Assembly: GCF_000745895.1 (NCBI RefSeq)
Contig: NZ_KN050771.1
Span: 1-64,000 of the forward strand
Direction of reading: 5' to 3'
From: Stenoxybacter acetivorans DSM 19021
GTDB taxonomy: Bacteria; Pseudomonadota; Gammaproteobacteria; Burkholderiales; Neisseriaceae
Length of the DNA stretch: 64,000 nucleotides
This document shows positions 8,111 through 56,608 of this stretch, piece by piece. Each line of letters opens with the position of its first letter. Positions within the stretch are counted from its first letter, which is position 1. The position numbers and the translations under genes were made by a program. Under the pieces are notes generated by a model. It did no database searches and had not been told where the DNA came from. It saw only the letters and a list, made by a program, of their open reading frames with translations.

Positions 8111-8731
8111 ATGTTCTCAAGCAAAAAAATAATGGCGTTGCTGTTACTTGCTGTCTCTTTTTCTGCAAATACAGTTATTGCCGGCGGCATTGATGATTTA
8201 CAAAAATTCAATGCCGACGTCAGCAGCATCAGCGGGCAATTTACTCAAACCGTAAGCGGTAAAAAGCGCACCCAAACCACGAGCGGCGAATTTCAGATTG
8301 TGCGTCCAGGCTTATTTCGCTGGGAATACAACAAACCTTATCAGCAATTGATTGTGGGCGACGGCAAAACCGTGTGGCTGTATGACCAAGATTTGGCACA
8401 AGTGAGCAAACGAGCACAAAACGAGTCTTTGGGCGACAGCCCCGCCGCCATTTTGTCTGATAAAAATGCGTTAAACAGCAGGTATACGCTGACTGAAGAC
8501 GGCAGCAACAATGATGTGAGCTATGTTCGCGCCGCGCCCAAAAGCAGCAACAGTAATTATCAATATATTCGCATTGGTTTTCAGGCAGGCAAATTAACTC
8601 AATTGCAGCTGAAAGACCAATTCGGTAATCAAACGGTGATTCACTTTAAAAACATTCAGGAAAACACCGCCATTGCTCGGGAGCGTTTTCGCTTTACCCC
8701 GCCCAAAGGTGTGGATATTATCAGCCAATGA
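8111..8731 (+). CDS. lolA: Outer-membrane lipoprotein carrier LolA
   Basis: A 206-residue periplasmic chaperone. An N-terminal signal peptide (about 25 residues, ending TVIAGG) precedes the LolA fold: VSSISGQFTQTV, GEFQIVRPGLFRWEYNKPY, GDGKTVWLYDQDLAQVSKR and a C-terminal RFRFTPPKGVDII. LolA takes lipoproteins released by LolCDE and passes them to LolB or the outer membrane, which fits a genome rich in lipoproteins. The length is usual. It is monocistronic here, facing away from the csgG-like operon and convergent with uvrD. Confidence 0.93.
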   Translation: MFSSKKIMALLLLAVSFSANTVIAGGIDDLQKFNADVSSISGQFTQTVSGKKRTQTTSGEFQIVRPGLFRWEYNKPYQQLIVGDGKTVWLYDQDLAQVSKRAQNESLGDSPAAILSDKNALNSRYTLTEDGSNNDVSYVRAAPKSSNSNYQYIRIGFQAGKLTQLQLKDQFGNQTVIHFKNIQENTAIARERFRFTPPKGVDIISQ

Positions 8732-8923
8732 AACGGCGGCCTAAATAACGCCCTTTCAATACCGCTGCAATAAACCGAAAAGCAGTGCGCAAAACGCTGT
8801 TGCAAGGGTTATAAAAAAGACAATATGAACTGCCGTGCGGGAAATGCCGTGCAGCGTCCGTAATGACAAATCTCAAGATTCAGGTTGCCTGAAAACAATG
8901 ATTGCGGATTGCGTTGCCCGCAA

Positions 8924-11170
8924 TCAAACGGCTTCCAGCTTGGCAAATGCACTGTCCAAATTTTTGATGCCCTGTTTGCCGAAATTAATGGTTAATTTGG
9001 CACTTTCGCCTTTGCTTAACGCATCAATAATCACGCCTGTACCGAATTTATCATGGCGAACAATCTGACCGATATAAAAACCGCCGAATAAAGGATTACC
9101 GGTAGCCGGTGTATTTGACAACTGCTTAATCTGACGCAGTGCTACCGGCTGTGAATTGCTGTGATACGCGGTGTTTTTACGCGGTGATAGCGGGTGCAGC
9201 ACTTCGGCGGGAATCTCATCAACAAAACGAGAGGGAACGCCGAAATGAGTTTGCCCGTGCAGCATTCGCTGCTGTGCCATGCTGATGTACAGCCGCTTGC
9301 GTGCACGGGTAATGGCAACATACATCAGGCGGCGTTCTTCTTCCAAACCTTTGCGCTCTGCCAAGCTGTATTCACTGGGAAACAAACCTTCTTCCATGCC
9401 GGTGAGAAAAACGGTTGTAAATTCCAAACCTTTGGCGGCGTGTATGGTCATCAGCTGCACGGCATCTTTACCGTTTTCGGCTTGATGTTCGCCCGACTCC
9501 AGCGCGGCATTGCTTAAAAAGGCCTGTGCCGCAAATGTGGGGCTTGCTATTTCATTTTCACTCAGCAAAGCTTCTCCCGCTTCGCTGGTTTGCAGTATCT
9601 CAAAAAAGCTGGATTCATGCGGATTGAACACCAGCGCGCTATTGACCAATTCTTCCAAGTTATCAATGCGTTCCTGATGTTCGCCTTTTTGATTGCGATA
9701 GTGTGCCATTAAGCCGCTGTCGTGAATCACAGCGGTCATCAGCTGCGGCAAGTTTTCCGTTTGGGCTTGTTCCTGCAATTGTTTGATGATGTGGATAAAT
9801 GCCGACACTTTGGCTTGTTTTTTGGCAAAAGCACAGGCGGACTGCCACAAAGAAATGTTTTCATCAGTAGCGGCTGCCTGAATATTTTCCACAGTGCGTG
9901 TACCAATGCCGCGTGCGGGAACGTTAATCACGCGCAATAAGGCGTTATCGTCATGCGGGTTAATTGCCAAACGCAGATATGCCAAGGCGTGTTTGATTTC
10001 TTGGCGTTCATAAAAACGCAAGCCGCCGTAAATTTTGTAAGGCACGCCGGCGCGGAACAGTGTTTGTTCCAAAATACGTGATTGCGCATTGCTGCGATAC
10101 AAAACAGCCATTTGTGCATAATCAATGCCTTCGCGGTGCAAGGTTTTGGCTTCGTCCACCACAAATTGCGCTTCTTCGCCGTCGTTATTTGCCGCCAAAA
10201 AGCGAATTTTTTCGCCCACGTTCGCATCGGTGCGTAAATCTTTGCCCAGCCGTTCGGCGTTGTGCGCAATCACGGCATTGGCGGCAATCAGAATATAACC
10301 GTCGGAACGGTAATTTTGTTCCAATTTAATCGGTGCGGCTGCCTGAAATTCACGCAAAAATGTTGTCATATTGCCGACGTTCGCGCCGCGGAAACGGTAA
10401 ATGCTTTGGTCATCATCGCCCACCGCAAACACGGCGGCGTGTTCACCTGCCAATAATTTCAGCCACGCATATTGCAATTTGTTGGTGTCTTGAAATTCGT
10501 CCACCAAAATATGATTGAAGCGATTTTGATAATGGGTGCGCAAAGCAGCGTTGTTGCTGAGTAATTCAAAGCTGCGCAGCATCAATTCAGCAAAATCCAC
10601 CACGCCCTCGCGCTGACAGATTTCATCATAAGCGGCATAGCATTCAATCATTTTGCGTGAATGCGGGTCGCTGCTGTCTGCCTGCAATTGTCCCGCGCGC
10701 AAACCGGCTTCTTTTTGGGCATTGATAAAGCCTTGCAGACTGCGCGGTGCAAGCACTGTTTCGGCAATGTTTAAATTTTTGAGCAGCCGTTTAATCAAAC
10801 TGAGCTGGTCGCCGCTGTCAAGAATTTGAAAGTCTTTGGGCAGCAGGGCTTCGCGGTAATGCAGCCGCAAAAAACGGTGGCACAATCCGTGAAATGTACC
10901 CAGCCACATGGCACGAACGGAAATCGGCAACATTGCCGACAACCGCGTTTGCATTTCTTTGGCGGCTTTGTTGGTAAACGTTACCGCCAATATGCTGTGA
11001 ACACTGGCTTGGTGTGTTTGCAGCAGCCAAGCAATGCGCGTAGTCAATACCCGCGTCTTGCCGCTGCCCGCACCCGCCAGCACCAAAGCGGCCTGCGGCG
11101 GATAGGTAACAGCGGCGAGCTGCTCGGGATTTAAGCCTTGCAGCAAAGTGGTATCGGTTAGGGTTTCCAT
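8924..11170 (-). CDS. uvrD: DNA helicase II UvrD (superfamily 1)
   Basis: A 748-residue UvrD/Rep-type 3'-5' helicase. Walker A AGAGSGKT is at about residues 32-39, with TFTNKAAKEM, VDEFQDTN (motif II), DDDQSIYRFRGA (motif III), LEQNYRS (motif IV), TIHAAKGLEF (motif V) and YVAITRARKRLY (motif VI). The C-terminus has a Tudor-like module (IGQIVRHDKFGTGVI) typical of UvrD and PcrA, which favours UvrD over Rep. It acts in nucleotide excision and mismatch repair; mutL lies 16 kb away. The gene starts 18 bases after the glnS stop and is probably co-transcribed with it. Confidence 0.93.
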   Translation of the reverse strand: METLTDTTLLQGLNPEQLAAVTYPPQAALVLAGAGSGKTRVLTTRIAWLLQTHQASVHSILAVTFTNKAAKEMQTRLSAMLPISVRAMWLGTFHGLCHRFLRLHYREALLPKDFQILDSGDQLSLIKRLLKNLNIAETVLAPRSLQGFINAQKEAGLRAGQLQADSSDPHSRKMIECYAAYDEICQREGVVDFAELMLRSFELLSNNAALRTHYQNRFNHILVDEFQDTNKLQYAWLKLLAGEHAAVFAVGDDDQSIYRFRGANVGNMTTFLREFQAAAPIKLEQNYRSDGYILIAANAVIAHNAERLGKDLRTDANVGEKIRFLAANNDGEEAQFVVDEAKTLHREGIDYAQMAVLYRSNAQSRILEQTLFRAGVPYKIYGGLRFYERQEIKHALAYLRLAINPHDDNALLRVINVPARGIGTRTVENIQAAATDENISLWQSACAFAKKQAKVSAFIHIIKQLQEQAQTENLPQLMTAVIHDSGLMAHYRNQKGEHQERIDNLEELVNSALVFNPHESSFFEILQTSEAGEALLSENEIASPTFAAQAFLSNAALESGEHQAENGKDAVQLMTIHAAKGLEFTTVFLTGMEEGLFPSEYSLAERKGLEEERRLMYVAITRARKRLYISMAQQRMLHGQTHFGVPSRFVDEIPAEVLHPLSPRKNTAYHSNSQPVALRQIKQLSNTPATGNPLFGGFYIGQIVRHDKFGTGVIIDALSKGESAKLTINFGKQGIKNLDSAFAKLEAV

Positions 11171-26790: not shown

Positions 26791-27044
26791 AAGCCTTTTT
26801 TGTTTCACTGGGTGAAATTCAATTTCATTTTGCCTATCCCATTCTGTCTTTCTTTATCCTTCCCAGTCTCATTTATAGCTGTACTATTATTTTTTCAAAA
26901 AAGAAAACATAGCCTATTCAGTAGATTTCAGATAATTAGCCGTAATTTTTCTGGCTAGTCATTTTGAAAAATTTAATAGTTCAGCTATATCTTGCATGAC
27001 AGGGAGGATCTATCTTAAAGGATTTCATTCAGGCTGCCTGTTAT
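26791..27044. other. Right border region of the acquired island
   Basis: This AT-rich stretch lies between the duplicated transporter unit and mutL and has no credible gene. The first uptake sequence after the island appears at about 27027. No inverted repeat, integrase or att-like site was recognised, so the right end of the transfer is not sharply defined. Confidence 0.4.
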
Positions 27045-30846: not shown

Positions 30847-30948
30847 GGGATTGTTCCTTGGGGTGTGTCGTTGTTGTGTCAATCAAATTCCTAAATTGTA
30901 CGCTTTTTGCCTTTGGCTGTGTATGGTGAAATAGTCATTCGTGTTTTT

Positions 30949-31107
30949 ATTGCGTCCTAATTATAAATATTGCATCAGATTGTGAGGGGATTTTTGCGTC
31001 AGCCCGAGTGGAAAAAGGGAAAACAGGCGTCTGTTTGATCAATGCGCAACAACCGTGTACCTCAAAAAGCGCCCGCAAGATACGCAATATTTAATTGAAG
31101 GCACAAT
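30949..31107. mobile_element. Miniature inverted-repeat element, copy A
   Basis: This non-coding element of about 159 bases starts TTGCGTCCTAATTATAAATATT and ends in the imperfect complement AATATTTAATTGAAGGCACAA, each end flanked by TA. Its interior shares TCAGATTGTGAGG, GATTTTTGCGTCAG and GGCGTCT blocks with copy B (56154-56298). A central hairpin AAACAG-GCGT-CTGTTT sits at 31021-31036. It lies between the divergent gapA and glnK starts and could affect either promoter. No transposase is encoded and I do not recognise the family; it is not the Correia/NEMIS sequence. Confidence 0.6.
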
Positions 31108-31789
<682 letters not shown>

Positions 31790-55065: not shown

Positions 55066-56094
55066 TCATTCCATTACTTTAGCAGCTTCTTTCAGCAATT
55101 CATCAGACAATACAGCACCCTCTTGCTCTGCGTGTTTTTTATTGACATACAAATCCAATTTATTCACACGCGTTGGTGCAATATCACCCGCTTTTTCGCC
55201 GTTCAGAATACGCGCCACCACCTTGCCGGTTTCCATGCCCAAATCATGATAATTGATGCCCAAAGCCGCCACCGCACCGCGGGCAACAGAATCCGTATCC
55301 GCCGCAATCAAAGGAATTTTGTTTTCCACCGCAACTTTGTACATGGATTCATACGCCGAAACCACGTTGTTGTCCAAAGAGGTATAAATCAAATCCACTT
55401 TGCCTTTTAAACTGCGGGTAGCTGTGGGAACATCGGTTGTGCGCTGCGCGGGAACAGAAAACAAATCAATGCCTTGTGCTTTCAACAATTCCTTCAATTG
55501 ATCCATCACAATGGTGGAATTGATTTCACCCGGGCTGTAAACATAGCCCACGTTTTTTAAGGTTGGCACTACTTTTTTCATCAAATCAATCTGCGGCTGC
55601 AAGGGCAATTCATCGGAAATGCCGGTTACATTGGTGCCGGACGGCTCCCAGCTACTCACCAATTTTGCCGCCACCGGGTCGGTAATCGCCGAAAATACCA
55701 CCGGAATATTTTTGGTTGCCGCCACCACGGATTGTGCGGAAGGCGTGGCAATCGCCACAATCACATCGGGATTGTCGCCGACAAATTTTTTGGCAATTTG
55801 CCCCGCAGTTGCCGTGTTGCCTTGTGCGCTTTGAAAGTCGATTTGCAGGTTTTCGCCTTCTTTAAAGCCTTCTGCCGCCAATTCATCAATCACGCCTTGG
55901 CGCACAGCATCTAATGCCGGATGCTCCACAATGGCGGTAATCGCTACTTTTTTCATGACAGCAGGCGCAGCAACAGGCGCACTGCTTGCACCGGAGGCGG
56001 CGGGTGTGCTGCTTTCTTGTCCTGCCGGGGAACACGCCGCCAAAATGGCAGACATTGCGCCGAGGGTAAATACTGACTTAAGACTTGAGTTCAT
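55066..56094 (-). CDS. ABC transporter substrate-binding lipoprotein (TrpX-like)
   Basis: A 342-residue lipoprotein (lipobox ILAAC, Cys21) with an Ala/Ser-rich linker and then an ABC_sub_bind (PF04392) fold: VAITAIVEHPALDAVRQGVI, IATPSAQSVVAATKNIPVVF, VTGISDELPLQPQIDLMKKV, and ALGINYHDLGMETGKVVARI. This class includes tryptophan/tyrosine-binding TrpX. No permease or ATPase gene is adjacent, so its membrane partners must be encoded elsewhere. The miniature repeat element (copy B) sits 60 bases upstream, in the promoter region. Confidence 0.87.
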   Translation of the reverse strand: MNSSLKSVFTLGAMSAILAACSPAGQESSTPAASGASSAPVAAPAVMKKVAITAIVEHPALDAVRQGVIDELAAEGFKEGENLQIDFQSAQGNTATAGQIAKKFVGDNPDVIVAIATPSAQSVVAATKNIPVVFSAITDPVAAKLVSSWEPSGTNVTGISDELPLQPQIDLMKKVVPTLKNVGYVYSPGEINSTIVMDQLKELLKAQGIDLFSVPAQRTTDVPTATRSLKGKVDLIYTSLDNNVVSAYESMYKVAVENKIPLIAADTDSVARGAVAALGINYHDLGMETGKVVARILNGEKAGDIAPTRVNKLDLYVNKKHAEQEGAVLSDELLKEAAKVME

Positions 56095-56153
56095 GCTGTG
56101 TGTCCTCTTTAAGAGTGAAATACGGTTGGCAAAATCAGTTTGACTACAATTTT

Positions 56154-56298
56154 ATTGCACCCCCCCAATTAAATATTATGTCAGATTGTGAGGCGATTTT
56201 TGCGTCAGGTCAGGTGCGAAGAAGGAAAATAGGCGTCTATTTGACCGATTTGCAACGACGCATGACGCAAAAACGCAATATTTAATTTGGGGTGCAAT
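56154..56298. mobile_element. Miniature inverted-repeat element, copy B
   Basis: An element of about 145 bases. The ends TTGCACCCCCCCAATTAAATATT and AATATTTAATTTGGGGTGCAA are complementary apart from a short C/A tract, and each is flanked by TA. An inner pair GCGATTTTTGCGTCA (56185-56199) and TGACGCAAAAACGC extends the stem, and AAATAG-GCGT-CTATTT (56227-56242) forms the apex. It is related to copy A at 30949. It contains no ORF and lies in the upstream region of the substrate-binding lipoprotein gene. Confidence 0.65.
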
Positions 56299-56359
56299 AT
56301 GTTTATAGTACAAAAAACTTTTCAGGCAGCCTGAGACAAGTAAACCACAGCACAGTAAA

Positions 56360-56608
56360 CTACTGTGCCGTCTTGCCTGATCCGGTTAAATCATCAATTT
56401 GCTGATGCTGCGATGCCATTTTTTGCTGCGCTTCATTCAGCTGTTTTTCCATTTGTTGTTTTTGCCGCACAGCTCTTTGAGCGGAATCTGCTTCCATTTT
56501 AGCCACGCCCGCCGAAGTCGCGGCGGTTTCCACGCCGCAAGCAGATAAAAACAGCAAAGCCGCAAATACACCCACCGTTTTGGTTGCCTGAACCAGAATA
56601 TTCATCAT
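56360..56608 (-). CDS. Small coiled-coil lipoprotein, unknown function
   Basis: An 82-residue predicted lipoprotein: lipobox FLSAC (Cys24), then a helical, Gln- and Lys-rich segment (VAKMEADSAQRAVRQKQQME, LNEAQQKMASQHQQ) likely to form a coiled coil, and a short Gly/Ser end. The length and layout recall Lpp-like or adaptor lipoproteins, but no family is recognised. AAGAGA precedes the first of two adjacent ATGs. It is separated by about 60 bases from apaG upstream on the same strand. Confidence 0.7.
   Translation of the reverse strand: MMNILVQATKTVGVFAALLFLSACGVETAATSAGVAKMEADSAQRAVRQKQQMEKQLNEAQQKMASQHQQIDDLTGSGKTAQ

Follow-up and report, generated by a model that had tools for sequence, protein, structure and literature searches.

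We suggest that two related sequences in the 64,000-nucleotide stretch of Stenoxybacter acetivorans DSM 19021 analysed here (the window) are, quite probably, old copies of a small non-autonomous element of the kind known as miniature inverted-repeat elements (MITEs). The element would have been moved in the past by a transposase acting in trans, its mobiliser being by now lost or unsampled. The two copies, A and B, belong to a family with three full members. It is a further small repeat family, from a genus that is Neisseriaceae-like by its uptake motifs and gene content and is represented here by a single genome. No long-standing question depends on it.

The proposed course of events is as follows. 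A transposase acting in trans on TA-bordered ends of about 26 bp would have brought the element, by copying or by moving it, to a small number of intergenic sites. Divergence would have followed, by point changes, internal insertions and deletions, and truncation. The mobiliser would have belonged to a TA-using family, and it may since have been lost or may lie in genomes so far unsampled, its source not being recognisable in the draft genome.

Members of the family within the genome

Copy A (161 bp) occupies positions 30948-31108 of the window and copy B (147 bp) positions 56153-56299, both given on the plus strand and with the TA at both ends included. An earlier note on this DNA had put both copies in the right place, with each end one base short. 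The internal blocks which it named, TCAGATTGTGAGG, GATTTTTGCGTCAG and GGCGTCT, are found exactly in both copies, and in A the stretch with the three blocks common to B is 30975-31032 (plus strand). The relatedness of A and B is far above chance. By blastn against the whole genome they are 79% identical over 90 bp (E 1.4e-15 with B as the query and 1.5e-15 with A), and their local alignment score is 90 against a maximum of 26 among 1000 dinucleotide shuffles.

The search was extended to the whole draft assembly of 2.61 Mb in 143 contigs. Blastn with B returns A plus parts of three other places, and the search with A agrees. Besides A and B the genome holds a third full element, copy C (contig C4, 4939-5077), a right half only, D (contig C13, from 46568), and an isolated end, E (contig C59, 12178-12203), which is probably an end of the same family. 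Copy C aligns with A and with B at local scores of 58 and 45, against shuffle maxima of 29 and 30 (1000 shuffles each). It is devoid of part of the middle common to A and B, and B in turn is devoid of about 14 bases present in A and C. Across the three full copies, the half copy and the probable end, the likeness ceases at the TATTG/CAATA borders, beyond which each copy has flanks of its own. So low a copy number counts against a MITE-like relic.

A sequence model of the half-element (63 positions, built from seven ends) scores the same seven ends at 47.4-57.5 bits, followed by E at 16.0, another place at 15.0 and the rest lower; this search scored 150 of the 891 first-look candidates, and its seven top ends are those from which the model was built. 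The full copies are short (139-161 bp) and carry no coding frame: six-frame translations of A and B, and C judged by eye, give no frame kept across the three, one frame being open over much of A and B and shifted in C. Hence the MITE-like repeat family proposed in the earlier note is borne out by inverted ends, TA borders, the absence of a kept frame, intergenic sites and the further copies found here.

By ORF lists and Pfam matches, each of the five sites falls between genes. Copy A, located some 100 bases upstream of gapA, has as neighbours this gene (minus strand, start at about 30846) and, on the other side, a P-II (glnK-like) gene that starts at 31451 on the plus strand. Copy B sits some 60 bases upstream of an ABC substrate-binding protein gene that starts at 56094 on the minus strand; the other neighbour of B is an 82-aa ORF (56360-56608, minus strand). 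From these positions A and B could affect the expression of gapA and of the ABC transporter gene. Copy C adjoins a methyltransferase gene (PF02390). The 3' end of an aconitase-family gene precedes D, and a glmU-like gene directly precedes E, whose other neighbour is an ORF of about 200 aa with no Pfam match. We also note that D ends within a few tens of bases of a copy of the IS630-derived MITE described below (contig C13, 46568-46786; locus L004, 1504-1722), and that its missing half looks as if it had been destroyed by a deletion or an insertion there.

Terminal inverted repeats and TA borders

A and B end in imperfect inverted repeats about 26 bp long, approximately of the form TATTGCRYCCC..AATTAAATATTGCG. 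With the TA included, they lie at 30948-30973 (plus strand) and 31083-31108 (minus strand) in A and at 56153-56178 (plus strand) and 56274-56299 (minus strand) in B. The earlier note had described the ends as TTGC...AATATT. Its TA borders are confirmed, and the ends themselves are better read as inverted repeats, both of the form TATTG(C/T)...CC......TAAATATTGCG-like. The arms score 24 against each other in A, 34 in B and 32 in C, the maxima in 1000 shuffles of each being 23, 24 and 26. Terminal inverted repeats are thus present in all three full copies, those of B and C being clear. In A the margin over the shuffles is a single score unit, and the repeat, taken alone, is worn almost to background. 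Copy B has in addition an inner inverted pair, TTTTTGCGTCA / TGACGCAAAAA, spanning 56197-56273 with arms at 56197-56207 and 56263-56273 (no strand assigned), so that B as a whole forms one long imperfect hairpin. Each end bears three spaced TTGCG-like motifs (TATTGCG, AATATTGCGT and TTTTTGCGTCA), which, on the unlikely reading of a so far undescribed TA-using transposon given below, could be several transposase-binding sites per end rather than one.

TA stands at all eight ends found (two each in A, B and C, one each in D and E), as the earlier note had held for A and B. However, TATTG...CAATA is itself inverted, and TA at the ends alone is therefore no demonstration of a TA duplication. It could represent either target duplication or the outermost bases of the inverted repeat, and the second of these weakens the case for a MITE-like relic. 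No duplication longer than TA is visible at the borders of the family copies.

Distribution outside the genome and insertion sites

The family set comprises 83 genomes, this one included, which is the sole member of its genus; the restriction described here is a restriction among the genomes searched. The expectation of further copies holds within the genome itself, at three more places, and fails in the related genomes searched, which yield none that convinces: neither blastn nor the half-element model gives a convincing copy of A or B in the 82 other family genomes. By blastn three of these have four short matches of 27-28 bases (E 0.003-0.005), which on inspection are unlike the element. 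With the model, 35 of the 83 genomes, this one included, have matches at E up to 0.1, the best elsewhere reaching 20.8 bits. Seven of the weak-match loci were inspected (L080-L085 and L088), and the most end-like of them, L081, is intergenic in genome G031. No second inverted end lies nearby at the 19 weak-match loci given (L080-L098): their other-strand scores are 14-20, random 750-mers have a mean of 17.5 and a maximum of 27, and the values for A and B are 34-68 on each strand.

In 399 genomes drawn from across the order, some of them also in the family set, the half-element model likewise finds no convincing copy. Within the limit of E 5e-4, G155 is the one other genome with a match (22.3 bits, covering model positions 19-51), and no second end was found beside it (score 18). 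First-look candidates scored per genome numbered 64 in the family search and 13 in the order-wide search, few enough that diverged copies may have escaped; the order-wide search did recover all seven known ends of this genome. Plasmids searched by distant blastn gave no match. A scan for the end pattern gave four matches in genome_contigs, all in unrelated groups (Bacteroidales, Clostridia, Marsarchaeota and Oscillospiraceae), and seven in viral_contigs. Our genome is not among the former, a set from which it or very close genomes may be missing. At these 11 loci no inverted partner of the end is found within the stretches examined, the best agreeing at 15-18 of 26 bases. That no relative was found outside this genome among the sequences searched is a further point against the MITE-like relic, and the literature searched holds no description of the family that we could find.

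The insertion site of A was compared with relatives. The closest by gapA and P-II identity (81% and 83%) is G055, in which some 42 kb separate the two genes, so that they are not neighbours. One 120-kb stretch of G055 was compared with the window and with the C, D and E loci, and the matches are confined to gapA, the P-II/transporter genes and a tRNA place. The intergenic sequence around A has no match at 29 relative loci (11 gapA starts and 18 P-II starts matched). The comparison of gapA/P-II flanks with the family genomes thus yields no empty site for A, which also weighs against the relic.

Relation to known small repeats

The family resembles the Correia/NEMIS elements in size range, inverted repeats, TA ends, intergenic siting and internal-block differences in size. 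According to the excerpt consulted of a review, these are about 105-155 bp long, have inverted repeats of 24 bp and TA at their ends, and come in two size forms that differ by an internal block, the long form being almost only intergenic (PMC2229807). More than 120 Correia elements are found in N. gonorrhoeae, as given in part of another paper (PMC10969869), in contrast to the three full copies here. The present family also differs in that A and B have no site like the IHF consensus, and in that none of the 82 other family genomes, among which Neisseria is presumably represented, yielded a copy of it. The end sequence of Correia elements we take to be different from that of A and B.

A second point of comparison is RUP of Streptococcus pneumoniae, which the same excerpt describes, together with IS630-Spn1, as small, TA-ended and proposed to move in trans (PMC2229807). 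The present family is likewise small and TA-ended. However, the ends of RUP also occur on an IS630 in the RUP-bearing genome, whereas the resident IS630-type element here has ends unlike those of A and B.

Identity of the mobiliser

Whole-genome end searches, among the places listed, reveal no autonomous element with the ends of A and B in the draft genome. TATTGCRYCCC has nine exact matches in the genome. Four of them fall on ends already described (two from B, one from C, and E), and at the other five the rest of the repeat does not continue. A scan for the 10-base end TATTGCGCCC at two IS630-type and 11 DDE_Tnp_1-type transposase loci found no inverted pair at the best three places per locus; the whole-genome end searches are the stronger part of this negative result. 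Nor do the 11 pattern-scan loci show an autonomous element with such ends, and the resident IS630-type element does not match them either. The absence of an autonomous partner from the draft genome speaks against a MITE-like relic, but it is not decisive, since the same holds for most bacterial repeats: apart from RUP, their autonomous partner was either not looked for or not found, as far as the consulted part of the review states (PMC2229807).

One form of the MITE explanation is that the family was moved by a past IS630/Tc1-type, i.e. TA-duplicating, element which has since been lost. The TA borders are consistent with it, and the size, inverted repeats and TA ends fit the pattern for small bacterial mobile repeats in the consulted part of the review (PMC2229807). 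Against it stand the absence of any autonomous relative among our finds and the possibility that the TA is the tip of the repeat and no duplication. We regard this form as a fair guess that falls somewhat short of an even chance. TA does not single out IS630, since other families can use it as well, e.g. IS427-type IS5 elements. Alternatively, the ends may be those of a TA-using transposon so far undescribed in Neisseriaceae, of which A, B and C would be the only trace in the lineage, which we find unlikely.

Regulatory RNA as an alternative

Alternatively, selection might have kept the sequences in front of gapA, the ABC transporter gene and the like because they act as a functional RNA or a hairpin regulator, with no transposon relic involved. 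The folding of B points this way, being far better than that of shuffles (z -6.19; 0 of 200 as good), but that of A scarcely exceeds chance (z -1.06, with 26 of 200 shuffles doing as well). The inverted repeats are nested, and A and B lie about 100 and 60 bases upstream of their respective genes; however, D follows the 3' end of its aconitase-family neighbour and E comes right behind the glmU-like gene, promoter-like sites are not in excess, and terminator-like sites fall outside B. In a joint fold of the three sequences, 4 of the 43 predicted pairs are changed on both sides, yet the covariation term is unfavourable (+3.23, from three sequences only) and many pairs are broken. No Rfam family is found for A or B: A has one match far below threshold (7SK, 6.9 bits against 44, E 4.9) and B has none. 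By the same consensus, an IHF-like site is absent from C as well as from A and B. Since the fold of A is weak, the covariation poor, and Rfam family, promoter excess and IHF-like site are all absent, a decaying relic fits better than a kept regulator, and we hold the latter to be very unlikely.

The resident IS630-type element and its own MITE

The draft genome has two IS630-type genes (PF13358), one a strong match on contig C53 and the other weaker and decayed on contig C36. The resident element, as read on C53, ends in TATAGCT.TACTATTA and not in TATTGCRYCCC. A 121-base form of it has 39 matches in the genome. Among them 29 span the query and are 83-100% alike, and two of the non-spanning ones are the ends of the C53 element itself. 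The abundant repeat matches both ends of the C53 element and is therefore a deletion form of it. Its copies, matches of 111-122 bp with TA at the ends, include 26875-26993 of the window (plus strand), 46666-46786 of contig C13 and 6488-6602 of contig C4, among others. In size and in its TA ends this MITE is similar to A and B. It differs in being abundant and derived from the C53 element, and its 39 matches include no member of the A/B family. Hence the true IS630-derived MITE of this genome is the TATAGCT-ended repeat, a thriving one, whose sequence is different from that of A and B, and the attribution is corrected in this respect.

The earlier note had proposed that an IS630-type transposase encoded elsewhere mobilised A and B, and had looked to an IS630-family element with the same termini. 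The resident element, with other ends and a MITE of its own, does not fill this role as far as its ends tell, and the searches described above brought up no transposase gene flanked by the A/B ends. That an IS630/Tc1-mariner-type transposase encoded in this genome moved A and B in trans is hardly credible: TA at all eight ends suits TA-targeting families and the genome does have IS630-type transposase genes, but both the resident element and its abundant MITE carry the TATAGCT ends, the A/B ends lie at no transposase gene found, and A and B, being only 79% alike, are not recent.

The C53 element (locus L110, about 1082-2007; contig C53 of genome G000, about 8578-9503) comprises a 102-aa helix-turn-helix frame (PF01710) and a 175-aa DDE frame. 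The two are separate ORFs around a run of A, which may reflect a programmed frameshift or decay.

Apart from these repeats, the window contains, on both strands together, 27 exact copies of AGGCTGCCTGAA and 7 of AGGCAGCCTGAA, which we take to be uptake-sequence dialects of the Simonsiella/Kingella kind.
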